Source: Parabacteroides chongii
GTDB lineage: Bacteria > Bacteroidota > Bacteroidia > Bacteroidales > Tannerellaceae
Length of the DNA: 64,000 nt
Reading direction: 5' to 3'
Assembly: GCF_029581355.1 (NCBI RefSeq)
Contig: NZ_CP120849.1
Span: 1,334,501 to 1,398,500 of the forward strand
Shown here: positions 2,029-62,088 of the stretch, piece by piece
Layout of the letters: every line of letters begins with the position of its first letter
How positions within the stretch are numbered: position 1 is the stretch's first letter
Notes under the pieces: model-generated
The model's input: the letters and a program-made list of their open reading frames with translations, nothing else
Databases searched by the model: none
What the model was told of the DNA's origin: nothing
Program-made: the position numbers and the translations under genes

Positions 2029-2085
2029 CAAATACAATAAAAGTAAAAAACGATTAGTATGTTAACTTTAAAATGTATTTATCTT

Positions 2086-5295: not shown

Positions 5296-5316
5296 CATTT
5301 AAACGTATTTATCATT

Positions 5317-6846: not shown

Positions 6847-6879
6847 CCGAATGGCTAATACGATAAAACAGACAATAAT

Positions 6880-8316: not shown

Positions 8317-8328
8317 GAAACAAACAAC

Positions 8329-8363
8329 AGATAGAGAGTTGGCAATACAGCAGCTCTCTATCT
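8329..8363 (+). terminator. Intra-operon hairpin between binding and enzyme genes of PUL1
   Basis: AGATAGAGAG (8329-8338) pairs perfectly with CTCTCTATCT (8354-8363) around a 15-base loop. No T-run follows, so it is more likely an RNA-stability or attenuation element than a full terminator. Confidence 0.5.
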
Positions 8364-8402
8364 ACTCATTCAAAACGGGAAGATGAAACACTCAATCACA
8401 TA

Positions 8403-10664: not shown

Positions 10665-10669
10665 CAGAT

Positions 10670-11935: not shown

Positions 11936-11941
11936 AACGAT

Positions 11942-22500: not shown

Positions 22501-23058
22501 AGAGACACTGATCGTCGCATTAGGATCCACATCCGACAACGAAAAATTACCATCTATATCCGTGATCCCCCCAATGGTTGTACCTTTCACCAATACATTC
22601 ACACCGATCAGCGGTTCGCCGGTTGCATCTTTCACATTTCCTGTTACAGTAATCTTCTTTTGCTGCTGAGACTCAGCAGCAAAAGTAACAGATCTGTTAC
22701 TTTTTTCGTTTCTACGTACAATAATCTGGCGATCATTGATAATATACTCAATATCTGTTCCTGCGAACATATTACTCAGTATTGTCTCAACCGTCTGGTT
22801 GTGAACGTCCACACTTACTTTCCTGTTCAAATTGATATTTGAACCGTGATACACAAAAATAAATTCACTGTTCTTTTCGATGTAATTAAATACATCTTTT
22901 ACGGTCCGGTTGTTCATACGAACGGTCAATGTGGTTTGCTCCGCATAGGCCGATGCTGCGTAGATGGCAGATCCTCCATAACTAACCAGACATAAGGCTA
23001 AACATGCACTTTTAAGAAAATGAGCCGGTTTTCGGCTGAATTCTTCATTCTTTTTCAT
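19594..23058 (-). CDS. SusC-type TonB-dependent transducer with STN domain (PUL2)
   Basis: Outer-membrane importer that also signals to the FecR anti-sigma factor. After the signal peptide it carries an STN domain (TVRMNNRTVKDVFNYIEKN through VETILSNMF), the periplasmic module that contacts FecR. Then come the carboxypeptidase-regulatory-like domain (GNVKDATGEPLIGVNVLVKG), LDEVVVIGYG, the plug (VLKDAASAAIYGSRAAFGVI) and the barrel ending in SFGLNVTF. I chose the ATG at 23058 rather than 23106 because it follows an ATTACAAAT leader also found before the other STN-type susC in this window. The sigma and FecR genes lie just upstream in the same direction. Confidence 0.95.
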   Translation of the reverse strand: MKKNEEFSRKPAHFLKSACLALCLVSYGGSAIYAASAYAEQTTLTVRMNNRTVKDVFNYIEKNSEFIFVYHGSNINLNRKVSVDVHNQTVETILSNMFAGTDIEYIINDRQIIVRRNEKSNRSVTFAAESQQQKKITVTGNVKDATGEPLIGVNVLVKGTTIGGITDIDGNFSLSDVDPNATISVSYIGYRTQDIALKGKSAVNITLSEDSESLDEVVVIGYGTQKKVDLSGAVATVSTKVLENRPVLTVGQALQGSVANMTVSIGSGQATDSPTFNIRGTTSINGGDPLIVIDGVVSTSEELNRMNPSDIGSISVLKDAASAAIYGSRAAFGVILVTTKTAGQEKLTVNYSNNFAMRKLSSMAEVITDPYTVATARNDFYYPWGVNHNQEELEYAKRVSSDPSVSPYFLKPDGTYAYFGQTDWFGEAYKNLAFSTNHTVDVSGKTDRLNYYFSAGYNFQDGMVSQGTDKFNRYNLRSKLDFKLTDWWTLGNNTSLVISDYDAPYFLGDDYYWAVNRRNALVPIKNPDGSYTEDGAAIMGRFAEGGRKKENKTTLTTQFTTKLDIIKDVLFVNGSFAYVANRNNKDGAQLSVPYRKGPETPILYQNSVSSAFFDNTEASTVTFDAYATFHKLFNDKHDFTAMVGYNQESWSESYEYAQRKELITDGLPTPNLATGDMTVTQRIRELSFRSVFGRLNYTYDNRYILAVNARYDGTSRFPTDSRFVFNPSGSAAWVISQEGFFEPLRDVVNFLKLRFSYGSLGNQYLKDNYYPYLATMGSDKSKVILDGKQPVYVSSPGLVAGDLTWETVTTSDWGMDVNFFNNRLTATVDGYIRRTKDMLRSGAKLPSVLGTAVPLENAADLKTTGWDLTISWRDQFKLAGKPFNYGASFNIGDSRSKITKYANETGSLGDHYVGKEWGEIWGLVNDGFFTSQEDIDNSADHTEVDPYPGTPPMAPGDVKYKDLNGDGKINKGANTLADHGDYKVIGNDQARYAFGFTANGDWNGFDFSIFIQGIMKKDYYPTRDPYFWGMYYDPWTNLTYGNYNDHWTTENPNGFFPRVKSYQAYVANRGLAIPQTRYLQNAAYARLKNLTFGYTLPQKWVEKVNISRLRVFFSGDNLCEITGLYKYYKMDPECLGGQIYPLQRSYSFGLNVTF

Positions 23059-23114
23059 ACATTTGTAATGTTTTTTCTTTGATACATAAATTAATAGATT
23101 AAACAAGAGACTTT

Positions 23115-33133: not shown

Positions 33134-36118
33134 TTATTTTGCAATAATTAACAAGCCCTTCCCTTTCGGAACAACAATCTCATCGCCGGGTTTCCAGGTT
33201 ACTTCCTGTTGGAAATTCTCGATAGCCGGGGCATGCAATGTCACTTTCGAAGGATCGAGACCCAGTTTAGCCCAGTCGATGGAAAGCTTCACTTTGGCAT
33301 CCGTATCTTCCCAGGTAGCCAATGAGATCAGTGCCTTATCACCCATGTGACTGTAAACGGTCGCCAACGTCTTTTCGCTGCCCGTCTTCACCGGATTGTC
33401 TTTCACCCAGTAACCGATCATTTCACTATTCTGCATACCGAAAGAATCCCACAGTTTCCACAGCGGTCCGTTATCCACACGAGGACTACGTCCTGTCATG
33501 CCATACAGCATGCCACGCCACGGATTACCGCCTCCTTCCAGCATCTCGCCCATCAAACCATAAGGAATACCGGAAACTTCAACCAGCCAAAACTCCGGCG
33601 GGAAATCATAATTGAAGTATTCACCGAACCACAGACGGTCGAGATAAGGGAAATGTTCCAAATACAAATTGGCACTATTGGCAAAACCGTCTTTCGGGTT
33701 ATACTGATTGGCAGAATGCAGGTCGATCATAGCACCCGGATTCGTACGGTTCATCACTTTGCGGATACGCTTCATCGTCATCCGGTCGAAAGCCAGGTCA
33801 TCGATATACAGCCCGTCGATACCGACGTTCTTCATCAGCCAGTCGAGACCTTCCAGATAATAATTATGCCAGCGGGAAACGCCACTGTTCACAATCGCCG
33901 CATCTTTCAGTCCGGGTACAAACCAGGCACCGATATAATTCTGATCCAAATGTTCCTGCAACCAGGAGAAGCCGCCGCCGGGACCTTCCGAGAATATCTC
34001 ATTCCCCAAACTACGCAAAGCAAACATTTCCACACAGCTGTTGGACAACTCACGAACGGTATTGTAAATTTTCACCTTCATGTCGCGGGCGTGAGCACCG
34101 TCGATGTACGCTTTCATCTCTTTGGTACGCAGGAACGGATAGTTGATGAACGGATTGATAGCATTGGCATGATGGATATTGATGACATTGGCACCTCGCT
34201 TTTGTATGCCATCCAGGAACTCATAGTTATGATGATAGCGTTCGCGCCATTGTTTATCCGTATCGATCGGACGGAACGGAGTCAACGCCAGGTTGAAATA
34301 ATAATACAGCCGGTCTCCTTTTTTCACGCTGCGCTTACCGGAATAAGCATTAATACGTGTTCCATCGGCAGCATTATGAATATCGATACCTCCATTTCCG
34401 GCATTACACCAGGATACCGGCATGTGCAACGGTTTTTGATGATAGAAATTGGTATTCAGCGGACGTTCGTATTTATTATCATACAGGCGGATCTGGATAC
34501 CGGCATTGACATCACCCACCCAAACAGCATCCTGGTTTTTCTCTACATCCCATTTCCAGCGAAGATCATTCGGACAATAACCGCCTTTCTCTCCCAAACC
34601 CATCATATAACGTCCGACACCGGATGCTAAATGTGTCCGCAACGCAACATCCTCCACAGAAGCATCTTCACGGGCGACCAATGTCACTTTATATGCTATG
34701 TTTCCATCCGATTCCATCTCTCCTTCCAGGTCCATCAGGAAACGGCTGTTCTGGTTAAGGGCTTTCCAGGCGATTGCACCTTGTTTATGTTTGGTGATTT
34801 CGAAGTTCAGGTTTTCCCATGCACCGCCATCGGCAGCCAGTTCCATAGGAGCAGCCAATACACTACGGCCATTCGTACCGATGCCCGTCATAGTCTCTTT
34901 GAAATAACTGGTAATATGTTCCGGCAAACCTAAGTCAGAGAGTTTAACCTCGCGTCCCAGGCAGCTGATCGTTTTATCCTTCATCACCAGCGGCGTATAA
35001 GGGGCAATCACCTCATCATCAAAACCGATCTGCGAGTTCAGCCAACGCAGACGGGAATGACGCCAAGGTTCATTATCTCCATGATTGGCAATTACATTTT
35101 CCGAAACATTCAGAGAGACTTGTACGGCTTTGCTTTCGGCATTGGCGGCAGAGACAGTCACTGTTCCCTGATAAGTGCCTGCAGAAAGATGCTCCGGCAA
35201 CTGGGTTCCAACCCATAATGCCTGTACCTTACCCTTATCCACAGAGCAATTCTTTTCAAAAACGGTACCGGTCACATCCGTCCCTTCCGTATTGAAACAG
35301 GTAAATGAGGAGGCCGGTATCTGCTCGCCGGTCGCTTTATTCGTAAGGGCAGAGAAATCGACATGCAGATTCTCTACATTCGAACGTGCCGCCCAGACAC
35401 CTAACTGAAAGACATAATACTCTCCCTTATCCGCCTGCCCGTTAAAGAAATCATGCCGGTTGTCGGCAATCCATTTATAAGGAATATCCGTTGTCATGCG
35501 GATGGGGAATTTGCGATCTTCCGTAAAGAGAATATATTTTTCCCCAGGACGTTCTTTTAATAAGCGGGCAGTCTCGTTCGATGTAGCGATCACTTCCATC
35601 GGATAGAAGCTGTTCAGCTCATTGATTGCCTGGAACTGTACGACTTTAGCAGCCGGAAGGGCAGGTGCTTTCTTCCCGGACAGTTTATTTTTCTTTACCC
35701 AGTCAGCCGAAGCCGTATTCTCGAAAGCAGGATAATTAACGGTCGGATAGTAAGGACTGCCGCTCATTACATTCTTCAGATAATAGATATAATATTCTCC
35801 CGGAATAGTCTGCGGCTGAAAAGCGACCTCTCCCCGCTCCCGGTCGACAGTAAAGCGGCATACATTCGTAATACGTTCACCGGTTGCAGCATCCACAACG
35901 ATCAGATTTTTTGCTTCCGGGTTCAGATCGCGGCGACGCCAGTCGATCGTTGCCAATACAGCATCGGCCGGTTTATCTACAGCGACAACCACCCGATGGT
36001 TTCCCAATGAATCGGCATTCCATGTACCCACCCCATAAAGTTCGTCTGTGGGTACAGCCTGTGCCTGCAAACTACTATAGGTAAACAGGCAAAAAAGTGT
36101 AAATAGCAATTGTTTCAT
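33134..36118 (-). CDS. DUF6067-type putative glycoside hydrolase
   Basis: Exported protein of 994 residues. A signal peptide (ending LQAQA) is followed by beta-rich N-terminal domains (about 20-340). A middle beta-sandwich covers about 400-640 (DVALRTHLASGVGRYMMGLG). A TIM-barrel-like region covers about 650-900: ANVINIHHANAINPFI, MKVKIYNTVRELSNSCVEMF, GIDGLYIDDLAFDRM and IDLHSANQY. A small C-terminal beta domain ends in KGKGLLIIAK. The carboxylates in GLYIDDLAFD are the best catalytic candidates. The family is annotated as a glycoside hydrolase domain of unknown specificity, related in plan to GH123-like proteins. It follows the sulfotransferase by 18 bases. Confidence 0.75.
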   Translation of the reverse strand: MKQLLFTLFCLFTYSSLQAQAVPTDELYGVGTWNADSLGNHRVVVAVDKPADAVLATIDWRRRDLNPEAKNLIVVDAATGERITNVCRFTVDRERGEVAFQPQTIPGEYYIYYLKNVMSGSPYYPTVNYPAFENTASADWVKKNKLSGKKAPALPAAKVVQFQAINELNSFYPMEVIATSNETARLLKERPGEKYILFTEDRKFPIRMTTDIPYKWIADNRHDFFNGQADKGEYYVFQLGVWAARSNVENLHVDFSALTNKATGEQIPASSFTCFNTEGTDVTGTVFEKNCSVDKGKVQALWVGTQLPEHLSAGTYQGTVTVSAANAESKAVQVSLNVSENVIANHGDNEPWRHSRLRWLNSQIGFDDEVIAPYTPLVMKDKTISCLGREVKLSDLGLPEHITSYFKETMTGIGTNGRSVLAAPMELAADGGAWENLNFEITKHKQGAIAWKALNQNSRFLMDLEGEMESDGNIAYKVTLVAREDASVEDVALRTHLASGVGRYMMGLGEKGGYCPNDLRWKWDVEKNQDAVWVGDVNAGIQIRLYDNKYERPLNTNFYHQKPLHMPVSWCNAGNGGIDIHNAADGTRINAYSGKRSVKKGDRLYYYFNLALTPFRPIDTDKQWRERYHHNYEFLDGIQKRGANVINIHHANAINPFINYPFLRTKEMKAYIDGAHARDMKVKIYNTVRELSNSCVEMFALRSLGNEIFSEGPGGGFSWLQEHLDQNYIGAWFVPGLKDAAIVNSGVSRWHNYYLEGLDWLMKNVGIDGLYIDDLAFDRMTMKRIRKVMNRTNPGAMIDLHSANQYNPKDGFANSANLYLEHFPYLDRLWFGEYFNYDFPPEFWLVEVSGIPYGLMGEMLEGGGNPWRGMLYGMTGRSPRVDNGPLWKLWDSFGMQNSEMIGYWVKDNPVKTGSEKTLATVYSHMGDKALISLATWEDTDAKVKLSIDWAKLGLDPSKVTLHAPAIENFQQEVTWKPGDEIVVPKGKGLLIIAK

Positions 36119-36136
36119 GTGTACTAGTATTTATCT

Positions 36137-37144
36137 TTAATATTGCTTTATACGATTGATCAATTCATCCTGCGGACGTCTTTTCGCCAGATCGGCCGGA
36201 TCAGCCTCACGAATAAAATCATTCTTCAGACGAATATTCTCTTCATTAAAATAAGTGATCTCCTTGTCAGAAAAGCTATCTCTCAGTAAATCAGCCGGTG
36301 TACATAAAGAATACCCCAGTTGCTGCAATAGATCTCCGGCTACGGATTCAAAGATAGCAATATCTTCGGAAGATAATTCACGCAGAAACTTTTTTGTATT
36401 GTCTTTCAGGATCGGTTTGGTTACATTTGCCCACATTTTGCCTGCAACCGCTGTATTTTCAGACTCGCGGCTCTTATAATAATCCATCACCCTATCAGAA
36501 TAAGGAAGATGCAGGAAATCGCAAAGCTGCCGCATCACTTTTTCCGGACTGGAAATAAGTGTTTCGTAATTCAGCATAAAGAAATGATCGGCCGCCGTCC
36601 TGTCTTTCAAACGGAGAGCAACTTCCTGATCCTTTTTCCAATTTTCAGCCAGTGCATAAATATGTTTCTCTCCGACAATAGCCTTTTTAAACGAAAGAGC
36701 GACATCACGACCGTCCCGGTATAGATAGATATAATAAGGAGAAATCCCGGTAGATTCAATGCCTTCTGCATACAGCATATTTTTCATGCTTTTACATAGC
36801 CAGAAAGAAGCTCCGGTCTGACGGGCTGCTGATTCATAAATCACCCGGAACAACTCATACAACGTTTGTTGCCTGCAGGCTGCTACCACTTCATCTGCAC
36901 GAATCGTAATACCTTCCCAGGGAACCGGATTCACTGTGACTAACTCGCACACATCCTGTGCCAACCGATAAAAATTAGACTGATCCGTTAAATCGCCATA
37001 TTTGGGAAGCAACGGTAAGAAACGCTGAAGAATATGCGGAGGATGGGGAGCAGCAATCTCCCGGATTCCGTCCAGCATGACACGCAACAGATTGGATCCG
37101 GATCGCTGGGTTCCAATCATTTGTATACCTTGTATTGTATTCAT
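36137..37144 (-). CDS. PAPS-type sulfotransferase
   Basis: Cytoplasmic sulfotransferase-family protein with no signal peptide. The 5'-phosphosulfate-binding loop is visible as GTQRSGSNLLR (11-21), and the 3'-phosphate-binding motif as LYRDGRDVALSF (141-152). The remainder is the usual P-loop fold; the 335-residue length is normal. Such enzymes move a sulfuryl group from PAPS to a hydroxyl or amine on a carbohydrate, lipid or small molecule. It lies 4 bases after the ChrA-family gene and directly before the DUF6067-type hydrolase. Sulfotransferases are unusual in catabolic PULs, where sulfatases are expected. The acceptor is unknown; sulfolipid or capsule modification are alternatives to glycan modification. 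Confidence 0.82.
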   Translation of the reverse strand: MNTIQGIQMIGTQRSGSNLLRVMLDGIREIAAPHPPHILQRFLPLLPKYGDLTDQSNFYRLAQDVCELVTVNPVPWEGITIRADEVVAACRQQTLYELFRVIYESAARQTGASFWLCKSMKNMLYAEGIESTGISPYYIYLYRDGRDVALSFKKAIVGEKHIYALAENWKKDQEVALRLKDRTAADHFFMLNYETLISSPEKVMRQLCDFLHLPYSDRVMDYYKSRESENTAVAGKMWANVTKPILKDNTKKFLRELSSEDIAIFESVAGDLLQQLGYSLCTPADLLRDSFSDKEITYFNEENIRLKNDFIREADPADLAKRRPQDELINRIKQY

Positions 37145-37148
37145 AGAA

Positions 37149-38327
37149 TTAGAATAAGATAAAGCCCGCCACGCCTGCTCCGATGATCAGGTAAACCGGA
37201 CTGATTGTGTATTTTAGTGAAATAAAAAATGTAACCAGGAAGATAATAACCGAAACAACCGACAGCGTAATCGTCTGTCCGATCGTAACGGCTGAAGCAA
37301 AGATCATTCCGATAACAGCCGCCCGTATCCCTTTCATGGCTGCTTTTACAACGGATGACTGATTCAGAATCTTTACAAAACGGGATAATAAGACGGTTAA
37401 TACAGCCGGCGGAGTAAACATCGCCAACGTTGCCAGCAACGCCCCCGTGATACCTGCCACTTTATACCCGATGAAGGTCGCTGTAATAAATATCGGTCCG
37501 GGAGTGATCTGCCCTATCGCTATCCCGTCGGCAAACTCAGCCGAGGTCAGCCAGTTCAAGTTCTCCACAAACAACTCATGCAAAGCAGGGATAACAACAT
37601 ATCCCCCTCCGAACAAAGTCAGGCTGATACCGGAGAAGGTCGATACAATCTGAATACCTTCTGGAGCACCCGGATATTGTCCTCCCCAAAGTAAGATACA
37701 GAGTAATAGCAAAAGAACAATCCCGGAAGTCATCAGCTGCCTGCTACCCGTCCGCTTCTCCCCATCTGATATCAACCCTTGCCCCACAGGCTGGCGAAAC
37801 AGGAAACCGCCGACTATCCCGCTACCGATAATCAACAGAAAAGTAACCGTAAAACCACCGATAAAAATCAGCAACAAAGCCGCCAGCAGGCAAAGAGCCC
37901 ATTGGGCTGGCAATTTGATCGTCTTACGTGCCATCCCGATAGCCACCGTAACGATCAAAGCGGTAATAGCCGGAGTGATTCCGCTGAACACATTCTTTAC
38001 CGCAGGTATATTTCCATAGGAGAAATACAACCACGAAAGAAATATAACCAGTAAAAACGAGGGAATAATGATCCCGGCAAAAGCTACAACCGCCCCCGGT
38101 ATCCCCCTTAAATGGTACCCGACATAGGCAATCGTATTTACGGCTACAGGCCCCGGCAATACGGAGGTCAGAGAAATCCCATCCAGCAAATCTTCTTCTT
38201 TCAGTTTCTTGTCTACTTCTACTAACTGCTTCTGTACGATAGCCACTAGCGACATATAACCGCCAAATGCCGTAGCTCCCAATTTCAGGAATGTAAAGAA
38301 GATATAGGATAGCGATGCACGTTCCAT
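37149..38327 (-). CDS. ChrA-family (chromate/anion) transporter
   Basis: Inner-membrane transporter of 392 residues with about ten to twelve hydrophobic helices and two homologous halves. Each half shows the family signature: FGGYMSLVAIVQKQLV with SVLPGPVAVN (about 21-64), then FGGGYVVIPALHELFV with GQITPGPIFI. ChrA proteins export chromate, but chromate is a structural analogue of sulfate, and most genomic members lie where no chromate is expected. It is translationally linked on both sides (1 base after the ASST-like gene, 4 bases before the sulfotransferase), so sulfate, sulfite or another oxyanion is a more likely natural substrate here. That last step is inference. Confidence 0.88.
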   Translation of the reverse strand: MERASLSYIFFTFLKLGATAFGGYMSLVAIVQKQLVEVDKKLKEEDLLDGISLTSVLPGPVAVNTIAYVGYHLRGIPGAVVAFAGIIIPSFLLVIFLSWLYFSYGNIPAVKNVFSGITPAITALIVTVAIGMARKTIKLPAQWALCLLAALLLIFIGGFTVTFLLIIGSGIVGGFLFRQPVGQGLISDGEKRTGSRQLMTSGIVLLLLLCILLWGGQYPGAPEGIQIVSTFSGISLTLFGGGYVVIPALHELFVENLNWLTSAEFADGIAIGQITPGPIFITATFIGYKVAGITGALLATLAMFTPPAVLTVLLSRFVKILNQSSVVKAAMKGIRAAVIGMIFASAVTIGQTITLSVVSVIIFLVTFFISLKYTISPVYLIIGAGVAGFILF

Positions 38328-38328
38328 A

Positions 38329-39816
38329 TTACTTGATTTCTTTAAAATATTTATCCCAGGTTTCTACCGGGACATACACTGCCCGATAAGGGGCAAAATG
38401 CAGGATACTTTCCCAAAGAACCTTTCCTTCCTTGTCCGTCACCATCACCGAACCGGTCTTCGAGCTACATTGTAGCAGATTCCCATTCGGCAGCATAGAT
38501 ACATTTCCCATACGGGAAGTATATTTATCGGCAGGCAATAAGGCATTTATCGTTGTCTCGGCCGTACGGTTCTCTTCATCCAACCGGAATGCTTTGCCTC
38601 CGGAACGCTGATTGTGTAAACCGTTGTCGAAAAGCATCAGATCGCCATTCTCCATAATATAAGGTGAATGTTGGAAAGAGAAATAAGCCGTTGTATCCAT
38701 CTGAAAATCACCGTCTCGTCCAAAACGCCAGACCAGTTCACCACTTTGGGCATCCACTTTCCAAATCTGGTCTTCGATAGGAGCCGACAATAAATAATTG
38801 CCATCTTTATCAAAGCAAAGCCCGTTGATATGGAAACGGTCATAACGGTATTCTGCGATATACGGGTCCTTCTCAATGTCCCATACATCCCAGGCAGACC
38901 ATTTTTTCAATACATTCCCCAATGTGTCGATGACCATAATGCCATCTCCCCCCAACGTATCCGTCTCCATTTTACCATTGACTGGAATCGTTGCCACTTT
39001 CTTCGGGCGGTACAATGTATGTATATGATGATCCTCATCCATTAATATATCATGATGAATCACTTGATAATCTTTCTCTTTTTCGACCTTATCCAAGTCA
39101 AGACGCCACATCGTTTCACCCGTTAGCGACACTTCCGCCAATCCGGTTCCACCGGCAAACCCGATCGAACCGCGACGCATCGGTTTTTTATGTTCATCGT
39201 TGCGTACTTGTTCAGGTGTCATCACATAATCATCAACAAAGTCTTTTACAAAGGGACGCAGCATCGCCAGGAAAGTTCCCCGTGGTGTAAGAGAAACTGC
39301 ACGCACGCCAATATCATCCACTTGCCAATACCAACGAACTTCGCCTTCGTTGTCAATCAGCATCATATAGCCGGGCAAGCGTCCAAAACAAAGTAATATC
39401 ATTCCATCTCCTAAAGCGGTTTTATCATGAGGTCGTTTATCTGTAAACCAACGGTTGACCAACCAGGACGATTGTTCACGGGTTTTAAAGGTCAGCTCTT
39501 TAGAATGCTGTTGAAATAGGTTATCTATGATTACCTGATAAGCATATTCTGTATTTGCTTTCAGAAGCAACAAATCAATATGATGAAGCGTATCGGCTGG
39601 AGAAGTACGCGTACGATACGATTTCCCGGTGCTTTTATCAGTATATTCCACATACACCGGTGCAGGTTTGGCCAACGATACATCCACTCTATTATACATA
39701 GCCGTATTACGCGGCGAAGTCAGCGTAACAGCAAGCAAGCTATTCCGTGTGTTCCAATAGAGAAATGCGGACACTCCGCATACTAAGACAATTACAAAAC
39801 TTATCAAACACCTCAT
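38329..39816 (-). CDS. Arylsulfate sulfotransferase (ASST)-like protein
   Basis: PAPS-independent sulfotransferase family member, which in characterised enzymes moves sulfate between phenolic compounds through a sulfo-histidine. The N-terminus (about 1-22) is a signal peptide or anchor, so the propeller is periplasmic. It has an N-terminal beta domain (about 28-115) and a six-bladed propeller. Histidines in the expected motifs are H255 (in IHHDIL), H329 (in RFHINGL) and H383 (in FQHSPYI, followed by GDLMLFDNG), the last matching the catalytic His of E. coli ASST. I chose the ATG at 39816, which starts a normal signal sequence; the longer reading from 39876 has none. It is the first gene after susD and is separated from ChrA by 1 base. 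Donor and acceptor are unknown. Confidence 0.82.
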   Translation of the reverse strand: MRCLISFVIVLVCGVSAFLYWNTRNSLLAVTLTSPRNTAMYNRVDVSLAKPAPVYVEYTDKSTGKSYRTRTSPADTLHHIDLLLLKANTEYAYQVIIDNLFQQHSKELTFKTREQSSWLVNRWFTDKRPHDKTALGDGMILLCFGRLPGYMMLIDNEGEVRWYWQVDDIGVRAVSLTPRGTFLAMLRPFVKDFVDDYVMTPEQVRNDEHKKPMRRGSIGFAGGTGLAEVSLTGETMWRLDLDKVEKEKDYQVIHHDILMDEDHHIHTLYRPKKVATIPVNGKMETDTLGGDGIMVIDTLGNVLKKWSAWDVWDIEKDPYIAEYRYDRFHINGLCFDKDGNYLLSAPIEDQIWKVDAQSGELVWRFGRDGDFQMDTTAYFSFQHSPYIMENGDLMLFDNGLHNQRSGGKAFRLDEENRTAETTINALLPADKYTSRMGNVSMLPNGNLLQCSSKTGSVMVTDKEGKVLWESILHFAPYRAVYVPVETWDKYFKEIK

Positions 39817-39840
39817 ATCAACACAGATTAATTTAGTAAG

Positions 39841-39878
39841 AAAAAAGAAGGGAGTGCCACCTATTCGACAGCACACCC
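39841..39878 (-). terminator. Terminator or attenuator between susD and the ASST gene of PUL3
   Basis: On the minus strand GGGTGTGC (39878-39871) pairs with GCACTCCC (39857-39850), with one mismatch and a 13-base loop, followed by TTCTTTTTT. It probably lowers expression of the downstream genes relative to susC/susD. Confidence 0.6.
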
Positions 39879-39892
39879 TCTCCAGTGTTTTA

Positions 39893-41428
39893 TTATGGTA
39901 AACGAGAAGCGTTCTCGGCTGCCATTTTTGAATTTAATTGCGCATCATTCAACGGGTACGGGAAATAGCGCAAGCTAGGTGTCACATTCGTCGGCTGGGC
40001 AATACCCAGTTTTTTCAGATGTGCATTAACCACCTCTTCATACTTACCGAAACGGATCAAGTCTGCACGACGCTGAAATTCGAACACCAGTTCATAACCA
40101 CGTTCCTTCAAGATAGCCTCATTCATCGCTTCTTTACTTGCCGGAGTCTGGAAACGATCGTGCTTGCCATATTCCGGAGCACCGGCACGGGCACGAATCT
40201 GATTCAAATATGGAAGGGCTGCAGCCGGACCATTCAAATTGTTTTCGATTTCAGCCTTACACAAAATAACATCCGACAGACGGAAAAGACAGATGGTACG
40301 ACCATCATAGTAAGCTTCCGAAAGCATATCGTACGTATATTTCATTGTAGAAACATTCTGCATGTATTTTGTCGTATCATTCGGAACCACGGTCACACCC
40401 TCTTCCGGTACCATATAACGGAAACCATATTCAGACTGGTCATCACGAGCAGCAACACCCGTATAGTCATAATAAAAGAATTCACGACGTGGGTCTTCTT
40501 TATCATAGCTACGCCAGAACGGGAGAGATACGCCATAATATTGCCAACGTCCCGGTACATCCGGATGGTCACTCGGACCGAAATGGTTGGCAATCTCACC
40601 TCCGTTTTGAGAAGATTCATGCAAAATAGCAAAGATCATCTCCTTACCATACTTATTATTCTCAGACCATACATATTTAAAATCACTTTCCAACTCATAC
40701 TGGCCACTGTTCAGCACCATATCAATATAAGTCTTCGCATTAGTATAGTCATGATTACGTAAATAGATCTTACCCAGCAATGTAGCAGCTGCTCCACTGG
40801 TAGCACGTGCCAAATCCTGACCTTCCCAACTTACGGGCAACAAATTGATACATTCCTTCAAATCGGCAATTATTTTTTCTTCAATCTGTGCAACCGGTGT
40901 CAGATCAACATCATTCATTGAAAAAGGATCATCCACCAAAGAGGTAAAGAAAGGTACCGCACCAAAAGCATCTGTCAGGTCACGGTAACAAAAAGCACGT
41001 AAAAACATAGCCTGCCCCTTTACCAGATCCTTTTTCTCTTCTGACATGTCTACGGCATCCACCTTATCCAAAATAACATTGGCATTAGAAATGACATTAT
41101 ACAAATCACGCCAGTTATTACTGAAATAACGGTTGTTGGCATCATACGTCATATTACTCAACTTCGCCGGATCGCCAGCGGCAGTCGAATACCCCATATC
41201 AGTTGCATAATCAGTCATCATGATCATATAACCGCCATACAGCAACCAGGCATCTCCCGGATAAGGAGTCATGTCTGAATACAATCCGACAACGGCCGCT
41301 TCAATATCCGACTCCGTGCCATACGCATTCGCACTCGTCAGGTTGCTATATATTTCCGGATCCAGATCGGTACAAGCAGAAAACAACCCTGCTGCCACTA
41401 AGCCTAACAAATATCTTTTTATTTTCAT
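39893..41428 (-). CDS. SusD/RagB-family lipoprotein (PUL3)
   Basis: Surface glycan-binding lipoprotein paired with the SusC upstream. The lipobox is GLFSAC, giving a mature start CTDLDPEIYSNLTS. The helical SusD fold is apparent, with the C-terminal signature LKERGYELVFEFQRRADLIR at about residues 435-460. At 511 residues its length is standard. It lies 21 bases after susC, and a terminator-like hairpin follows before the ASST-like gene. The substrate is unknown. Confidence 0.93.
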   Translation of the reverse strand: MKIKRYLLGLVAAGLFSACTDLDPEIYSNLTSANAYGTESDIEAAVVGLYSDMTPYPGDAWLLYGGYMIMMTDYATDMGYSTAAGDPAKLSNMTYDANNRYFSNNWRDLYNVISNANVILDKVDAVDMSEEKKDLVKGQAMFLRAFCYRDLTDAFGAVPFFTSLVDDPFSMNDVDLTPVAQIEEKIIADLKECINLLPVSWEGQDLARATSGAAATLLGKIYLRNHDYTNAKTYIDMVLNSGQYELESDFKYVWSENNKYGKEMIFAILHESSQNGGEIANHFGPSDHPDVPGRWQYYGVSLPFWRSYDKEDPRREFFYYDYTGVAARDDQSEYGFRYMVPEEGVTVVPNDTTKYMQNVSTMKYTYDMLSEAYYDGRTICLFRLSDVILCKAEIENNLNGPAAALPYLNQIRARAGAPEYGKHDRFQTPASKEAMNEAILKERGYELVFEFQRRADLIRFGKYEEVVNAHLKKLGIAQPTNVTPSLRYFPYPLNDAQLNSKMAAENASRLP

Positions 41429-41449
41429 ATTTAAAATCTCCTCTTTTTA

Positions 41450-44400
41450 TTAGAATGTAATATTCAAACCGACCGTATAAGTACGTGTAGACGGATACGC
41501 ATTGAAGTCAAGACCGGCACCGGCATTTGCTGTCTGCTGGCTACCACCAGACTGAGTCGCTTCGTTAGCCTTAGTATCCACTTCAGGATCCCAGCCGGAA
41601 TATCCCGTGATAGTGAATAAGTTTTCAGCAGAGAAATACACACGGCAGGAACTTACCACCTTCTTAAACGGAATCGTATAGCCCAATGTCAAATTTTTCA
41701 AACGCAGGAAAGAAGCGTCTTCGATAAAATGATCATTGATATAACCACCGTACTGAGAATAGTAGAAACCATTACGCGGAATATCTGTATTGGTATTCGT
41801 CGGAGTCCAACGGTTCAGTGCATCCGGTGTACGTTTCCATTCCAGATTCATACGAGTCATATTCAACAAGTCGTTACCGATTGATCCCTGGAAGAAGATA
41901 GAGAGATCAAAACCTTTCCAGGCAAAGTTATTCGTCAAACCGAAAATCACATCCGGATTTGCATTACCGATGATTGTACGGTCGTCAGAATCAATCTTAC
42001 CATCCTTATTCACATCTTCGAACTTCGGATCACCCGGTTTGGAGTTAGGTTGCGGAGCGTATGTTTCACCTTCTTGCAATACACCTATATATTTATAACC
42101 GAACAAAGAACCTAATGATTCACCTTCGCGAACAACGGCATAAGCCTCTTCCGACACAGTACCCATCGGCTTGGAAGATGTGATATAAATATCTGTGCTG
42201 CTACCTAAATCCAACACTTTGTTACGGTTAACGGCCAAGTTAAACTTCGTATCCCAAGTAAAATCACCTGTCAGGTTATGAGAGGTAATGTCGATTTCGA
42301 AACCACGGTTCTGTATAGCACCGATATTACGCTGCCCGGAAGTAAAACCTGTATAATAGGGTAAAGATACTTTCAGCAGCAAGTCTTCTGTTTTTTTCCA
42401 ATAACCATCCAATGTCACAGACAAGCGGTTGTCAAAGAATCCCATATCCACACCGACATTATACTGAGAAGTTGTCTCCCATTTCAAACTGGCATTCTCC
42501 GGACTGCTTTGGTTCAGATGCGTACCCGGCTTGTTGCTTGAACCGTCCAGGGTGATCCGGTTGGTTGAAATCAATGCATAAGATGCGTAATCACCAATAC
42601 GTTCATTACCTGTCACACCATAACCGGCACGAACCTTCAAGTTGCTGAAAAGATTCAAATTCTTAATAAAATCTTCCTCACTGGCACGCCAAGCCAACGA
42701 TCCGGAAGGGAAAGTACCCCAATGGTTGTTTACACCGAAACGGGAAGAACCGTCGCGACGAACCGTCACCGTTGCCAGATACTTATCCTTGAATGTATAA
42801 TTCACACGTCCAAAGAAAGAAGCCAAAATATTCTCTGTCTTATTAGACATAATATCTTTCGTAGAAGCAGCACTCAAATTGTTCCACTGGAACAAGTCGG
42901 TTGAGAATCCTTTTGCTTCAGTCTGACGATATTCTGAATTATATTTTTCATAAGAATATCCCAACATCACATTCAGATCGTGCATATTATTGAAGGTCTT
43001 CATATAATTCAAGATACCTTCAAATACCTGACGGGTAGCTCTGAAATCGTATGTTGTTGCCACACCACCTTCAATTTCTCCTTGATAAGTCGATTTCGGC
43101 AGATAAGTCCCTTTGAAATTATTCAACAACTCCACACCGGCAGTCGCCTTGGCTGTGAAACCTTCGAACGGGTGTACTTCAAGGAAAGCAGTACCGTTAA
43201 ACTTATCGTTGGTCATATCATTCTTACGTTCCAACAAGTTAGCCAATGGGTTATCGCCACGACCCCCCGGTACACGACCATAAGAACCATCTTCATTATA
43301 AGGCTTCACTGTCGGATCATAGTCCATAATACTCAACAATACGTTTGAGTTGACAATACTTCCGCTATACATCTGATAATTTGACTGTTCGCGATGTGCA
43401 TACATCGTAGCTCCCGCCTTGATGTAATCGTTGATTGTCTGATCGACATTGATACGTCCGGAAATACGATTAAAGTCAGTATTCTTCAAGACACCTTCCT
43501 GCTGATAGAAGCCCAGGCTGGTCAATACCTTTGTTTTCTCCGTACCACCACGGAATTGAATATTATGGTCATGTACCAAACCGACACGCGTTGTTTCTTT
43601 CAACCAATCCGTATCTACGTCAGACTGCAACTGAGAAGGGGTATAGGCTCCATTCGGATTACCTTCCTGTCCTTCAATTTCCTGATACAACGCATTCTGT
43701 AAATTCATATAATCCTTCGCATTGATAAATGTAAATGGATTATCAATCTTTTGAGCACCCATATAACCGCTGTAAGAAATCTTATTCTCACCGGCTTTAC
43801 CCCGTTTAGTCGTAATCAATACGACACCATTGGCACCACGGGCTCCATAGATAGCTGTTGCGGAAGCATCCTTCAAAATCTGCATAGATTCAATATCATT
43901 CGGATTGATGTTCAAACCTTCAGAAGAGGGGAAACCGTCCACTACATACAACGGTTCGTTGGTAGACGAAATAGAGTTGCTACCACGAACACGTACCGAA
44001 ATAGTACCGCCCGGAGCTTTAGAACTCTGTGAAACCTGCACACCGGCAGTCTTACCCTGCAAAGCCTGAGCTGCATTACTTACCGTACCGCCCATTACCA
44101 TATCATCAGCCGATACAGTAGAAACAGCACCTGTCAAGTCTTTCTTCTTTACATAACCATAACCAATGGCTACAACCTCATTCAGACCAATTGCCTCTTC
44201 AGCCAAACTGACATTCAGCACTGACTGACTACCTACCTTTACTTCTTGCGTAGTATAACCAATAAAAGAAACAACCAGAGTTGCATTATTAGGTACATCC
44301 AGGGTATACTTACCGTCCAGATCGGTAACTGTACCATTTGTGGTTCCTTTCTGCACAACATTAGCACCTGGTATAGGCTCTCCGGCACTGTCCGTTACTA

Positions 44401-44605
44401 CACCCGACACCTTTTTAGCCTGTTGAGTGATCATAACACTTTCATTCTTTGCTTTCGCTGCATCCACTCCGCCCGGAATAGCATACGAAGAAACGAGGGA
44501 AGATATACATAATCCAGCTATAAGACCGGACCTGGATAACACCTTCCGCGTCTGAGAATCCACTGCTCTTGCAGCAAGATTGTCTTTCAGTAAAGCGTTG
44601 TTCAT
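41450..44605 (-). CDS. SusC-type TonB-dependent transporter (PUL3)
   Basis: Outer-membrane importer of PUL3, 1051 residues. The N-terminus is unusual: about 25 charged residues precede the hydrophobic signal segment (GLIAGLCISSLVSSYAIPGG). It has no STN domain. The carboxypeptidase-regulatory-like domain begins KVSGVVTDSAGEPIPGANVV, then come LNEVVAIGYG, the plug (ILKDASATAIYGARGANGVV) and a barrel ending in TVGLNITF. No sigma/FecR pair or DUF6377-type gene lies beside it. Instead the upstream 80-280 bases hold a segment bounded by inverted repeats and a promoter-like element, so control by DNA inversion is likely. The long N-terminus could mean a later start, but no better ATG precedes the signal. 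Confidence 0.94.
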   Translation of the reverse strand: MNNALLKDNLAARAVDSQTRKVLSRSGLIAGLCISSLVSSYAIPGGVDAAKAKNESVMITQQAKKVSGVVTDSAGEPIPGANVVQKGTTNGTVTDLDGKYTLDVPNNATLVVSFIGYTTQEVKVGSQSVLNVSLAEEAIGLNEVVAIGYGYVKKKDLTGAVSTVSADDMVMGGTVSNAAQALQGKTAGVQVSQSSKAPGGTISVRVRGSNSISSTNEPLYVVDGFPSSEGLNINPNDIESMQILKDASATAIYGARGANGVVLITTKRGKAGENKISYSGYMGAQKIDNPFTFINAKDYMNLQNALYQEIEGQEGNPNGAYTPSQLQSDVDTDWLKETTRVGLVHDHNIQFRGGTEKTKVLTSLGFYQQEGVLKNTDFNRISGRINVDQTINDYIKAGATMYAHREQSNYQMYSGSIVNSNVLLSIMDYDPTVKPYNEDGSYGRVPGGRGDNPLANLLERKNDMTNDKFNGTAFLEVHPFEGFTAKATAGVELLNNFKGTYLPKSTYQGEIEGGVATTYDFRATRQVFEGILNYMKTFNNMHDLNVMLGYSYEKYNSEYRQTEAKGFSTDLFQWNNLSAASTKDIMSNKTENILASFFGRVNYTFKDKYLATVTVRRDGSSRFGVNNHWGTFPSGSLAWRASEEDFIKNLNLFSNLKVRAGYGVTGNERIGDYASYALISTNRITLDGSSNKPGTHLNQSSPENASLKWETTSQYNVGVDMGFFDNRLSVTLDGYWKKTEDLLLKVSLPYYTGFTSGQRNIGAIQNRGFEIDITSHNLTGDFTWDTKFNLAVNRNKVLDLGSSTDIYITSSKPMGTVSEEAYAVVREGESLGSLFGYKYIGVLQEGETYAPQPNSKPGDPKFEDVNKDGKIDSDDRTIIGNANPDVIFGLTNNFAWKGFDLSIFFQGSIGNDLLNMTRMNLEWKRTPDALNRWTPTNTNTDIPRNGFYYSQYGGYINDHFIEDASFLRLKNLTLGYTIPFKKVVSSCRVYFSAENLFTITGYSGWDPEVDTKANEATQSGGSQQTANAGAGLDFNAYPSTRTYTVGLNITF

Positions 44606-44689
44606 AAACTTGAATTATTAGATTTATATCTGCATTACAATTGTATCACCCTTTACAGTAAACTTGTCAGAATACCAATAATTGACCTG

Positions 44690-44711
44690 AGTTCGATAAG
44701 AACTCATTCAA
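44690..44711 (+). repeat. Left inverted repeat of a putative invertible promoter
   Basis: A 22-base element with core CGATAAGAACTCA. It matches the reverse complement of 44860-44881 at 20 of 22 positions. GAGTTC and GAACTC flank GATAA at 44689-44705, so the element is itself nearly palindromic, as recombinase sites often are. Confidence 0.8.
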
Positions 44712-44843
44712 AACAGATAGATCTTAAAAAAGGAAATATGTAAAAAAGGCTTTAGAGGAGTTCTATTCATAAAGATTTGAGTGGGGAGAGTGTTAAATTC
44801 TTATTTTTTTTAATATGAGAAACCGATATTAGTGTATTTTTTA

Positions 44844-44851
44844 TATATTTG
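44844..44851 (+). promoter_or_regulatory. -7 box inside the invertible segment, pointing away from susC
   Basis: TATATTTG matches TAnnTTTG on the plus strand, while susC is read on the minus strand. No CAAAnnTA (a leftward -7) is found in the segment. No good -33 TTTG is seen at the standard distance. If the segment is flipped the box would fall near 44720-44727, directed at susC. Confidence 0.5.
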
Positions 44852-44859
44852 GCAAAAAA

Positions 44860-44881
44860 TTGAGTGAGTTCTTATCGGACT
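44860..44881 (-). repeat. Right inverted repeat of a putative invertible promoter
   Basis: Partner of 44690-44711 in opposite orientation, identical at 20 of 22 positions, including the 13-base core CGATAAGAACTCA. The two enclose 148 bases. Confidence 0.8.
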
Positions 44882-45228
44882 AAATCAGTTGCTTAAGAAA
44901 GGTTATAACGTGTTCTTATCTTGATATTCAAATAACAGACTGATATAAAGTACGTTTTACACAAATAGAATATTTACCTATTTAACCTTAAAATGCGTTT
45001 ATTGATCTATTTTACATAAAACAAAATGTTCCCGATTAAGACAAATCATCATTCAACTATCATAAAACGATCTATTTAAGGTAAAGCATCGTAAAAATAG
45101 ACATAAAAAACTATCAGACACAGACCATTTTTTCCATAGCACCCTATATTTTTTACTCAACTATACCTACTTTTTTCACGAAAACAACTAATTTTTCTCC
45201 TTCAGCCCCCCATTTTATATCCTTTTAC

Positions 45229-45297
45229 ACCCGGGTTTAAACGATGCTAAGACCCGGGTCCCGACACCCTTTACACCCGGGTCTCAAAAAAGATAAT
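45229..45297. repeat. Three-copy palindrome array with 23-bp period (ACCCGGGT)
   Basis: The perfect 8-base palindrome ACCCGGGT occurs at 45229, 45252 and 45275, exactly 23 bases apart. The intervening 15 bases are not conserved. Confidence 0.85.
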
Positions 45298-45351
45298 TAG
45301 TTACTTTGCTGAAAATAAGTCCTATAGACAGGAAGTTTTGTCAGGCAGTTT

Positions 45352-45455
45352 TATGATAGTATGATAGTAGAAAAATGGAACTATCACACTAACTATCATA
45401 GCCTTTACATATTGATATTCAACATATATAAAGCCATAAATGATAGTATGATAAT
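45352..45455. repeat. ATGATAGT direct and inverted repeats
   Basis: ATGATAGT occurs in tandem at 45353 and 45361, inverted at 45380 (one change) and 45392, and again in tandem at 45440 and 45448 (one change). TATGATAGT (45352-45360) can pair with ACTATCATA (45392-45400) around a nested TGATAGT/ACTATCA stem. It lies just after the PUL4 operon end. Confidence 0.7.
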
Positions 45456-45488
45456 TATATTAAACAATATTGATGTAAAGGAGCCTAT

Positions 45489-58584: not shown

Positions 58585-61500
58585 TTAGAAACTAAGGTTC
58601 ACACCAAAAGAATAACTCTTCATCATAGGATAATCGAATATTGTCGAACTTTCCGGATCATAATATTTTACCTTATTCTGAAGCAAACATAAGTTATTTC
58701 CTGTCAAGAAGAATTTCAACTGGGCAACCCCCAACTTTGTCAATACAGATTTAGGCAATGCATACGAAAGATTCACATTTTTCAGACGTAAAAAAGAACC
58801 GTTACGCATCCAAAATGTCGATTCCTCATCAGCAGCATTACGAGATGCACGTGGAAAAGCTGCATTCACATTCTCCGGTGTCCAGTGATCAGTCCAAAAA
58901 TCGAAGTTTGTTTCTTGCGGACGTGCCTGAGCACCTCTCATAGCGATCATCACATCATGCCCAGCTACTCCCTGCAAGAAAATATCCAAAGAAATGCCTT
59001 TCCATGAACCACCTAAAGAAATACCGTAATTCAAAGGAGGTGTCGTATGATTTATAATCCAGTCTTTATCATTATCATCAATCACACCATCCGGTTCATC
59101 ACTGTTCGCACCACGCAAATCTTTATAGTTCAGCATTCCCAGTTCAGGCTTCTGCCCAAAGATAGTATAACCTTCCGGCAGTGCATCCAGATCTGCTTGC
59201 GTACGGATAATACCTGTTGCGATATATCCCATTTTACGATCCGTGCTATAACCGATCTCGGACTTATAGGGGCGAAGATTCTCTGCTTCATCTTTCGTGA
59301 CCACTTTATTCACTGCATATCCCAAATTTCCTTTTACATAATACTTGAAATCGTCACCGATCTTATCATTATAGCCTAACTCCACTTCAAACCCTTTGGC
59401 ATCGATCACACCATAGTTTTCAGAAGGCATCTTCGCGCCGAAAGTGGCAGGAATACTGGCTGCTCGGTCTCCCAAAATATCATATGTATGCCGATAGAAA
59501 GCATCCACATTCATCGACAGCCTGTTATTCAGGAAAGTAGCATCAAGACCGAAGTTATATGTCAAAGACTTTTCCCAGGTTATATCGACATTGGGAATAA
59601 CATCTGCTGCAACACCGCTGCTCAACGAACCAAAATAAGCACCATTTACCAGATTATATCGCTGCATCCATTGCCATCCGCTGATCGCATTTTTATCCTT
59701 CAACACGATACCGTCATTCCCCAGCAATCCAATGGAAGTTCTTAATTTCAAATAGTTGATAAACTTAACATTTTCTTTGAAGAACTTTTCTTCCGACACT
59801 CTCCACGCCAATGAAGCAGACGGGAAGAATCCCCAACGGTTCTTGGGAGCAAAATTGACAGATCCGTCATAACGGAAAGAGGCTTCTACCAGGTACCTGT
59901 CATCGTAACCATAATTCAAACGACCTATATAAGAGATACGTCCTGTCTCTTCCCCTTTTCCATCCACGGTAGAGTTCTTCGAATCGGAACTACCGGCAAA
60001 TAATTGGTCGACTGCGGAAGATATGAAGTAATTTCTCACTCCGTTGAACCAATCGACCGTTCCTTCCGATTGCTCGTAAACAAACAGGGCACCCACATCA
60101 TGTTTTCCGAACTTATTGGCATATGTAATATATCCGTTCAACTGATAACTGTCTCTGGTATCATATTTTTCCTCCAGAAAATCACCGTCAGATCTTACTT
60201 TGACACGGTCTACCACATCTGTTATAATATGATTGTGGCCGCCTGTCATTTTATATTCATACAACGAATAAGGACGGTTGAACTGTTTAATAAATGTGTG
60301 CCTGTCGTATTTATTAAATAATAATTTAAGACTCAATCCCTTGATAAACGGAACATTATATTGTAAAGAAATATTCGCTTCATAATTGGAATACTTCTTT
60401 CTGTTATAACCGGTATTCCCTCCCAACAATTCTATCGGGTGCCATTCTACAAAACTTCCCGTCGGCTTCCCGTTAATATACGGAGGTACCTGCCCTGTCC
60501 GGAAAAGTAACCCTCTGTACAGGTTATCCATCTTATCTGAATCGTTGTCATATCTCCAATACGGTTTATCGTCATTTCTCGTATCCATATTCAGATTCAG
60601 GGAGACGATCAGGTCTTTCGTAATGTTTGCCTCCAGGTTACTTCTCAGATTATATTTCTTGAAGCTCAGATTATCGAAAGAACCTGTTTCATAATAGTAG
60701 TTACCTCCAATAAAATAGCGGACACGTTCGTTACCTCCGCTGACATTCAAAGAATGTCTCGTAAGCAGCGGTTGTTTCCATGCCTCATCCAGCCAATTAT
60801 AATTGTTCTTTTTGAAGTACTCTAACTCATCGTCCGTATAATAACTCAAATCTGTCGGATCGACATTTTCCACAATTCTATTGTCATTGATAAAGACTGC
60901 CTGGTTGTAAGCATTCTGTGTCTCAGGAATCATAGTTGCATCAGATATACCGATAGAGCCGGTATAAGCGATCGTCGGCTTTCCTACTTTTCCTTTCTTG
61001 GTAGTAACCAACACAACGCCGTTGGCCGCACGTGCTCCATAGATGGCAGCAGATGCTCCGTCTTTCAGTACAGACAGGTTTTCCACTTCACTCGCATCCA
61101 AACCGTCAAATGCAAATTTATCTCTGACAATCCCGTCAATCACATACAAAGGAGCTGAATCATTCCAGGTACCTTTGGAGCGCACCGTCATATCGGCACC
61201 AGCACCGGGTTTACCTCCGGATTGCGTCAGCAATACCCCTGCCATTTTACCGACAAGCGCACTGGACAAACTACCCGCCGGAGAATCCTGAATATCTTCT
61301 GCACTGACAGAAGAAACCGATCCGGTCAGGTTCACTTTTTTCTGGATACCGTACCCTACAACTACTACTTCTTCGAGCTTCTGAGTATCTTCCAGCAACT
61401 TTACATTAACGGGAGAACCGTCATGTACAGGTACTTCCTGGCTGATATAACCGATATAAGAGATTAGGAGTGTTTTTCCGGAAACATTATTCAAAGTATA

Positions 61501-62019
61501 TTTACCATCGATATCCGTAATGGTTCCGTTCGTAGTTCCTTTCTCCACAACGTTAGCACCGATAATCGGCTCACCGCCAGCATCAGTAACTATACCCGTC
61601 ACATTTCCTTTCTTTCCCTGTGCCACAACCGGCTTTCCCGAACTGTCACTCTTTTCCGCCGGGTTGATTAGAATAAGATTATTCTCTGTGATCTCATACT
61701 TGATCCCTTCCTTTGCAAACAGACGGTTCAAAATAGTTTCGACACTCTGGTCTTTCTCGCGGACAGAGACTTTCTTATCTAGGTTGATTTTTCCACTCTC
61801 ATAAATAAACCGGAACTCGGACTGGTTCTCTATCAAGTAAAGGATCTCCTTGATGGACTGATTATTGACATCCAACGACAGCTTCGTCTTTTGGGAATAA
61901 ACGGTAGCCGAAATATTAAGCGAGAAAGCAATTAAAGCTAATGTTGTCAATCTCATAATAGCGTATACCTTTTTAAGGACCGGATACGATTCCAGCCTTG
62001 ACATATTAAAAAAATTCAT
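58585..62019 (-). CDS. SusC-type TonB-dependent transducer with STN domain (PUL4)
   Basis: Outer-membrane importer and signal transducer of PUL4. A signal peptide (ALIAFSLNISATVYS) is followed by an STN domain (LSLDVNNQSIKEILYLIENQ through VETILNRLF). The carboxypeptidase-regulatory-like domain (GIVTDAGGEPIIGANVVEKG), LEEVVVVGYG, plug (VLKDGASAAIYGARAANGVV) and barrel ending SFGVNLSF come after. The STN domain and the adjacent sigma/FecR pair show trans-envelope control, as in the FecA/FecR/FecI scheme. I chose the ATG at 62019 because it directly follows the leader shared with the PUL2 susC; an ATG at 62061 would add 14 residues. SusD follows after 18 bases. Confidence 0.95.
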   Translation of the reverse strand: MNFFNMSRLESYPVLKKVYAIMRLTTLALIAFSLNISATVYSQKTKLSLDVNNQSIKEILYLIENQSEFRFIYESGKINLDKKVSVREKDQSVETILNRLFAKEGIKYEITENNLILINPAEKSDSSGKPVVAQGKKGNVTGIVTDAGGEPIIGANVVEKGTTNGTITDIDGKYTLNNVSGKTLLISYIGYISQEVPVHDGSPVNVKLLEDTQKLEEVVVVGYGIQKKVNLTGSVSSVSAEDIQDSPAGSLSSALVGKMAGVLLTQSGGKPGAGADMTVRSKGTWNDSAPLYVIDGIVRDKFAFDGLDASEVENLSVLKDGASAAIYGARAANGVVLVTTKKGKVGKPTIAYTGSIGISDATMIPETQNAYNQAVFINDNRIVENVDPTDLSYYTDDELEYFKKNNYNWLDEAWKQPLLTRHSLNVSGGNERVRYFIGGNYYYETGSFDNLSFKKYNLRSNLEANITKDLIVSLNLNMDTRNDDKPYWRYDNDSDKMDNLYRGLLFRTGQVPPYINGKPTGSFVEWHPIELLGGNTGYNRKKYSNYEANISLQYNVPFIKGLSLKLLFNKYDRHTFIKQFNRPYSLYEYKMTGGHNHIITDVVDRVKVRSDGDFLEEKYDTRDSYQLNGYITYANKFGKHDVGALFVYEQSEGTVDWFNGVRNYFISSAVDQLFAGSSDSKNSTVDGKGEETGRISYIGRLNYGYDDRYLVEASFRYDGSVNFAPKNRWGFFPSASLAWRVSEEKFFKENVKFINYLKLRTSIGLLGNDGIVLKDKNAISGWQWMQRYNLVNGAYFGSLSSGVAADVIPNVDITWEKSLTYNFGLDATFLNNRLSMNVDAFYRHTYDILGDRAASIPATFGAKMPSENYGVIDAKGFEVELGYNDKIGDDFKYYVKGNLGYAVNKVVTKDEAENLRPYKSEIGYSTDRKMGYIATGIIRTQADLDALPEGYTIFGQKPELGMLNYKDLRGANSDEPDGVIDDNDKDWIINHTTPPLNYGISLGGSWKGISLDIFLQGVAGHDVMIAMRGAQARPQETNFDFWTDHWTPENVNAAFPRASRNAADEESTFWMRNGSFLRLKNVNLSYALPKSVLTKLGVAQLKFFLTGNNLCLLQNKVKYYDPESSTIFDYPMMKSYSFGVNLSF

Positions 62020-62088
62020 ATATTTGTAATTTGATTGTTTGTTAACAATAGTGCTGAACACACTGTAAATTAATGATCAAAAAATAAG

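Follow-up and report, generated by a model that had tools for sequence, protein, structure and literature searches.

A probable invertible promoter upstream of a Parabacteroides susC operon and the AGTTC-N5-GAACT sites of its arms

Promoters that invert upstream of susC and capsule operons, the premise of the original prediction for this locus, are established (PMC4747536, PMC8375218, PMC12118408). For B. fragilis, PMC4747536 describes Tsr0667 and Tsr19/BF2766 together with invertible promoters of SusC/SusD and surface loci. The Mpi-type capsule promoters of B. fragilis carry the inverted repeat ARACGTTCGTN, and the Mpi-type segments of B. intestinalis measure 183-186 bp with the repeat GTTCGTTTAA (PMC8375218). 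Capsule loci of Bacteroides and P. distasonis contain GTTAC-N7-GTAAC-like and GCTACTYRGNRAGTAGC repeats (PMC12118408), and inversions have been noted in P. distasonis (PMC5903667).

The element described here lies at positions 44690-44881 of the window, by which we mean the whole 64 kb stretch of DNA that was analysed. Like the SusC/SusD promoters of Bacteroides, it consists of a short promoter segment between inverted repeats, with outer-membrane uptake genes among the targets. The Tsr0667 and Tsr19 systems, in which one recombinase serves distant sites, resemble the action in trans that we infer for this element; they have named recombinases, whereas none was identified here, and the comparison does not extend to the site sequences. 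With the Mpi-type promoters the element shares a similar segment length (192 nt from core to core, 183-184 in several relatives) and a promoter at the inner edge that is directed outward through the proximal repeat. It differs in the site itself, as the window arms do not contain ARACGTTCGTN and the spacer varies between elements while matching between arms. The targets differ as well: in contrast to the capsule loci governed by Mpi-type promoters, 11 of 20 products next to the elements described below are SusC-type, with no recognised capsule gene among the 20. The GTTAC-N7-GTAAC class is similar in having a palindromic site with an odd-length spacer, the form expected for tyrosine recombinases, but its arms and spacer length are different, and the window arms fit neither GTTAC-N7-GTAAC nor GCTAC-N7-GTAGC (5-base arms, 7-base spacer). 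A literature search for the string GTTACN7GTAAC gave no match. No description of AGTTC-N5-GAACT was found by motif or topic in a literature coverage that lies outside the key B. fragilis and PhaseFinder papers and includes the accessible portions of PMC12632263, PMC3090145, PMC8748976 and PMC10939037; the main text of PMC11892184, as far as available, mentions neither Parabacteroides nor GAACT. Invertible susC promoters are already a known kind of switch, and the class with arm-matched spacers is the more interesting result.

The inverted repeat and promoter box before susC

In agreement with the predicted pair of 22-base inverted copies, the two arms match at 20 of 22 positions (91% complementary) and are separated by 148 nt. 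The 12-base core GATAAGAACTCA is exact in each arm, as is the C preceding it. Written as AGTTC-N5-GAACT, both cores have the spacer GATAA, and the right one departs at a single position, in its outer half, with AGTCC for AGTTC. The arms thus flank a short stretch of intergenic DNA next to the start of a gene, the arrangement of Bacteroidales invertible promoters. When 22-mer inverted repeats within 400 nt were scored over 44606-45488, the best score was 20/22, while 200 dinucleotide shuffles of the same interval reached a maximum of 18/22. The coordinates of the features are listed in Table 1.

Table 1. Features of the susC locus, with positions in the window
Feature	Position	Strand	Remarks
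Glycoside hydrolase 123	33134..36118	-	GH123_N; same strand as susC
Sulfotransferase	36137..37144	-	Sulfotransfer_3
Chromate-transporter-family protein	37149..38327	-	Chromate_transp, two stretches
Arylsulfotransferase, ASST-type	38329..39876	-	Arylsulfotrans
susD	39893..41428	-	SusD_RagB, SusD-like_3
susC/RagA-type TonB-dependent receptor, first downstream gene	41450..44605	-	Plug, CarbopepD_reg_2
Fixed leader, left arm to susC ATG	44606..44689	-	Without TAnnTTTG
Left, susC-proximal arm	44690..44711	+	AGTTCGATAAGAACTCATTCAA; core AGTTC-GATAA-GAACT at 44690-44704
Predicted invertible segment, OFF orientation	44712..44859	.	148 nt, between the two arms
-7 box TATATTTG	44844-44851	+	Ends 15 nt before right core; directed away from susC as assembled
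Right, distal arm	44860..44881	-	AGTCCGATAAGAACTCACTCAA; core AGTCC-GATAA-GAACT on the - strand at 44867-44881

The original prediction held that the sole good -7 box of the segment points away from susC. Indeed, TATATTTG is the only TAnnTTTG on either strand of 44606-45488, and from its direction, away from susC, we take the assembly to represent the OFF state. After inversion the box would occupy 44720-44727 of the - strand. Its distance from the A of the start codon of susC (44605) would then be 115 bases, not far from the roughly 110 bases first estimated. Bacteroidetes promoters usually have 19-21 nt between the -33 and -7 boxes; inspection of the sequence at this spacing from TATATTTG revealed no TTTG, so that the segment carries an outward box of a predicted promoter without a -33 TTTG.

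The downstream GH123 gene may be co-transcribed with susC. As an observation in its own right, 33134-44605 combines genes of sulfate transfer (ASST-type arylsulfotransferase and sulfotransferase) with a susC/susD uptake locus, a chromate-transporter-family gene and GH123, which is an unusual pairing. The scan of the window comprised 25 ORFs, exclusive of the large ORFs in 2059-14143, 19594-23106 and 58585-62061. It located a DUF6377 protein (159-1871) and two sigma/FecR pairs (24331-24879/23182-24264 and 63197-63739/62152-63132), and found neither kind of regulator among the 14 ORFs scanned in 25360-52401. For the ORFs scanned, the susC locus therefore does lack the sigma/FecR pair or DUF6377 regulator of the other loci, as had been proposed.

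Further upstream, 45055-45200 is an intergenic repeat: the orthologous position of the genome G001 carries it at 97% identity, and four further copies in that genome are 77-78% identical (one of them over 72 nt only). A CCCGGGT-rich stretch follows it at about 45230-45285.

The same locus in related Parabacteroides

The susC product shares 92% identity with that of P. goldsteinii (G038), 90% with that of P. gordonii (G036) and 89% with that of P. massiliensis, and close relatives (77-92% identity) occur in 7 of 38 Parabacteroides genomes. The closest genome compared, G001, has 26% of sampled words in common with the window. P. goldsteinii, P. gordonii and G001 have arms at the same place upstream of susC, and the two arms change together. 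The spacer is GATAA in the window and in P. gordonii and AATAA in P. goldsteinii and G001, and the base after GAACTC is A in the window, G in P. goldsteinii and T in both P. gordonii and G001; in each case the two arms are the same. The P. goldsteinii and G001 elements have AGTCC instead of AGTTC in both arms and were therefore missed by the exact site pattern.

All three assemblies in which the orientation can be read (window, P. goldsteinii and G001) show OFF and none shows ON. In the fourth orthologue, that of P. gordonii, a run of 205 N starts and ends at the arms (CTCTTTCA|N...N|TGAAAGAG). The overlapping P. gordonii loci scanned, 158 kb in all, contain no other N run longer than 10 nt. 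Mixed orientations that could not be resolved in assembly are a natural cause of such a gap, although it may alternatively be a masked stretch.

No repeat arm was found near susC in P. massiliensis, and in P. faecalis (G012), G040 and G046 the contig with the susC relative contains no match to the arm when up to 3 mismatches are allowed. In P. massiliensis a fixed promoter, TTTG-N20-TATTTTTG, faces susC and ends 117 nt from the ATG, compared with the 115 predicted for the ON state of the window. Local alignment of this promoter favours ON over OFF in all three species by small margins (20.5 against 16, 22.5 against 20 and 21 against 20). We considered it as a fossil ON state, but neither the ON nor the OFF alignment beats chance when set against shuffles, and its likeness to ON is hence one of position and not of homology.

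The AGTTC-N5-GAACT site class

The window arms belong to a Parabacteroides class of AGTTC-N5-GAACT sites. In the relatives with large genomes exact sites far outnumber those of a reversed control; the counts are 46 vs 2 in G001, 54 vs 2 in P. gordonii and 45 vs 2 in P. goldsteinii, and 25 vs 7, 24 vs 7 and 22 vs 9 in G039, G014 and G015, whereas G017 is not enriched (14 vs 23). Of 38 Parabacteroides genomes, 11 contain 10 or more sites with a count no less than double that of the control, and the same 11 carry close inverted pairs. Still higher numbers than in any of these 38 were counted in G051 (81 sites, control 2) and G072 (61 sites, control 6), which belong to other genera of the family. 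Loci L052-L059 of G086, from another genus of the family, differ from these paired sites in that ATAAGAACTC/ATAGGAACTC-like repeats are densely arrayed there.

A search for pairs in which both N5 were left free returned 16 loci in 11 of the 38 genomes. Together with the window, the spacers are equal within all 17 elements, and the similarity beyond the 15-mer often ends at once. Among the adjacent pairs less than 2 kb apart in P. gordonii, where 50 of the 54 sites are listed, 17 of 18 have the same N5 in inverted and none in direct orientation (chance about 0.2% each); in P. goldsteinii the N5 agrees in 13 of 13 adjacent pairs. Since a few spacers recur within P. gordonii (TTGCA twice, and TGTAT and its reverse complement ATACA in two elements), the spacer addresses are not strictly unique.

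Orientation and -7 boxes were analysed on a list of 48 elements for which equal spacers had been demanded, so that the spacer equality itself was tested by the free-N5 search and the P. gordonii and P. goldsteinii pairs. The list required exact or near-exact cores and thus misses decayed elements, it includes orthologues that are not independent, and five fetched P. goldsteinii loci had no pair. An outward TAnnTTTG ending 12-18 nt before a core is present in 23 of the 48, compared with a mean of 0.6 and a maximum of 4 in 500 shuffles, while 25 lack a box at this distance. The window element, with its inverted cores of equal N5 and a distance of 15 nt, has the same layout.

Both orientations are found in a sibling element. 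The outer flanks of L096 (G039) and L104 (G014) match, with 88% identity over 43 nt and 99% over 108 nt. The intervening segment of 154 nt, from core to core, aligns in reverse at 99% identity, and the element thus lies in opposite orientations in two species. The AGTCC/AGTTC difference of the outer half stays with its flank in both, which places the crossover within the core or further inward. The window arms have the same asymmetry. The pair L186/L232 is a second, weaker inversion case (inner part 72% over 137 nt), and the remaining orthologous element pairs that passed the thresholds have the same orientation.

The 20 neighbouring products were chosen for readable frames and not at random. 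Besides the SusC-type receptors they comprise two ECF sigma factors, FecR, Reg_prop, a sulfatase, an HU-like protein, DUF3575, a TPR protein and one without a match. L197 and L228 are elements of ~575 nt between two similar outward-facing genes, of which the one tested (at L197) is FecR; in elements of this type one promoter may choose between two regulators.

Candidate recombinases and competing explanations

The arm-matched spacers, the co-changing arms, the distance from -7 box to core, the inverted sibling and the N gap of P. gordonii support an invertible promoter, and 44690-44881 is very probably one. The original proposal of a phase-variable promoter for the susC operon, seen OFF, thus stands as the best reading, with inversion at this locus and the recombinase as its inferred parts. 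In this scheme a site-specific recombinase, whose gene probably lies at another place in the genome, would bind the paired AGTTC-N5-GAACT sites and exchange strands within the common spacer GATAA, flipping the 148 nt between the arms. In the OFF state, as assembled, the TATATTTG promoter would be directed away from susC, with no consensus -7 box toward the operon; in the ON state the box would face susC from 115 nt upstream, and susC, susD and the later genes would be on in a fraction of cells.

A recombinase was also sought near the element, as the original prediction had proposed, and none is present among the 25 window ORFs scanned. A PF00589 search, which covered P. gordonii and G015, gave 66 matches in P. 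gordonii, next to 4 to PF00239. On the two main P. gordonii contigs no recombinase match comes closer than 17.7 kb to a listed site (50 sites), and action in trans is therefore likely. PF00589/PF00239 genes are numerous in the relatives, and none could be tied to the AGTTC-N5-GAACT sites. Several integrases of ~410 aa are 89-97% identical between P. gordonii and G015; the core was not found in the recombinase loci compared between these two genomes, and a regex scan for tyrosine recombinases near elements, run without a positive control, gave no match and is given no weight. A serine recombinase (G036:C2:287971, G015:C1:1230235) tracked the site-rich genomes within the genus. As the driver it was rejected, given that G032 has an 86%-identical copy without site enrichment (11 against 10), and that no match at E<=1e-20 exists in G051 (81 against 2 sites, 94% complete) and G072 (61 against 6, 77% complete), the two genomes with most sites. 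Other repeats, of a CTTATTT type, adjoin 9 of the 13 shorter tyrosine recombinases compared from P. gordonii (L205-L217) and both of the two from G015 (L221, L222), which makes these enzymes unlikely drivers. Each of L207, L208, L210-L214, L216, L217, L221 and L222 lies beside a separate inverted repeat of this type, spaced about 400-550 nt, and these repeats with their short tyrosine recombinases are probably a second, locally driven class of switch. Strand exchange across an overlap needs the free positions to match between partners, and serine recombinases need only two central bases. As all five spacer positions are matched between arms and not between elements, a tyrosine-type enzyme is favoured over a serine one.

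The strongest competitor, which we nevertheless consider unlikely, is a locked relic that once flipped and is now fixed OFF in the lineage, through recombinase loss or the mismatched right core, with susC expressed weakly or from an unrecognised promoter. The OFF orientation in all three readable orthologues, the AGTCC of the right core and the fact that no recombinase was identified would fit such a state. Yet the AGTCC outer half is also present in L096/L104, which occur in both orientations, the arms and spacers are still matched across four species, which is unexpected for relics, and the N gap of P. gordonii starts and ends at the arms. It is highly improbable that the paired motifs are instead operator sites of a DNA-binding regulator acting by looping or repression. 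Each core is a near-palindrome (AGTTC/GAACT), as operators often are, and a partial third copy, GATAAGAACACG, lies at 44909-44920; this copy has an incomplete core, is not preserved in that form in P. gordonii or P. goldsteinii, and was dismissed as a site. Moreover, a regulator would not need the central five bases to be equal between arms yet different between elements, the P. gordonii pairs are inverted in 17 and direct in none of 18 cases, and L096/L104 are physically inverted. The arms are short and the region is AT-rich, but a chance inverted repeat in such intergenic DNA is extremely improbable, as no shuffle came up to the observed score, the repeat is kept in three relatives with arms changing together, and the 64 kb window holds only three sites within one mismatch, two of which are these arms.

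With the invertible promoter as the preferred reading, the locus turns from one suspected switch into a member of a testable class, with a recombination signal common to many similar switches in related species. Tentatively, we suggest as quite possible that Parabacteroides possesses addressable switches: one trans-acting recombinase would serve AGTTC...GAACT, with the spacer matched within and mostly different between elements, so that each promoter flips alone without chromosome rearrangement, and the class would mainly determine, for each cell, which SusC-type uptake systems are on, along with some ECF sigma/FecR and Reg_prop regulators. With the motif, candidate phase-variable promoters can be looked for in any Parabacteroides genome, and from the spacer rule one can predict the partners with which a site is able to recombine. 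Since the operon behind the switch includes genes for an arylsulfotransferase and a sulfotransferase, individual cells may differ in sulfation-linked metabolism. A stochastic choice among uptake systems would bear on the response to diet, the exposure of phage receptors and the persistence of strains in the gut.
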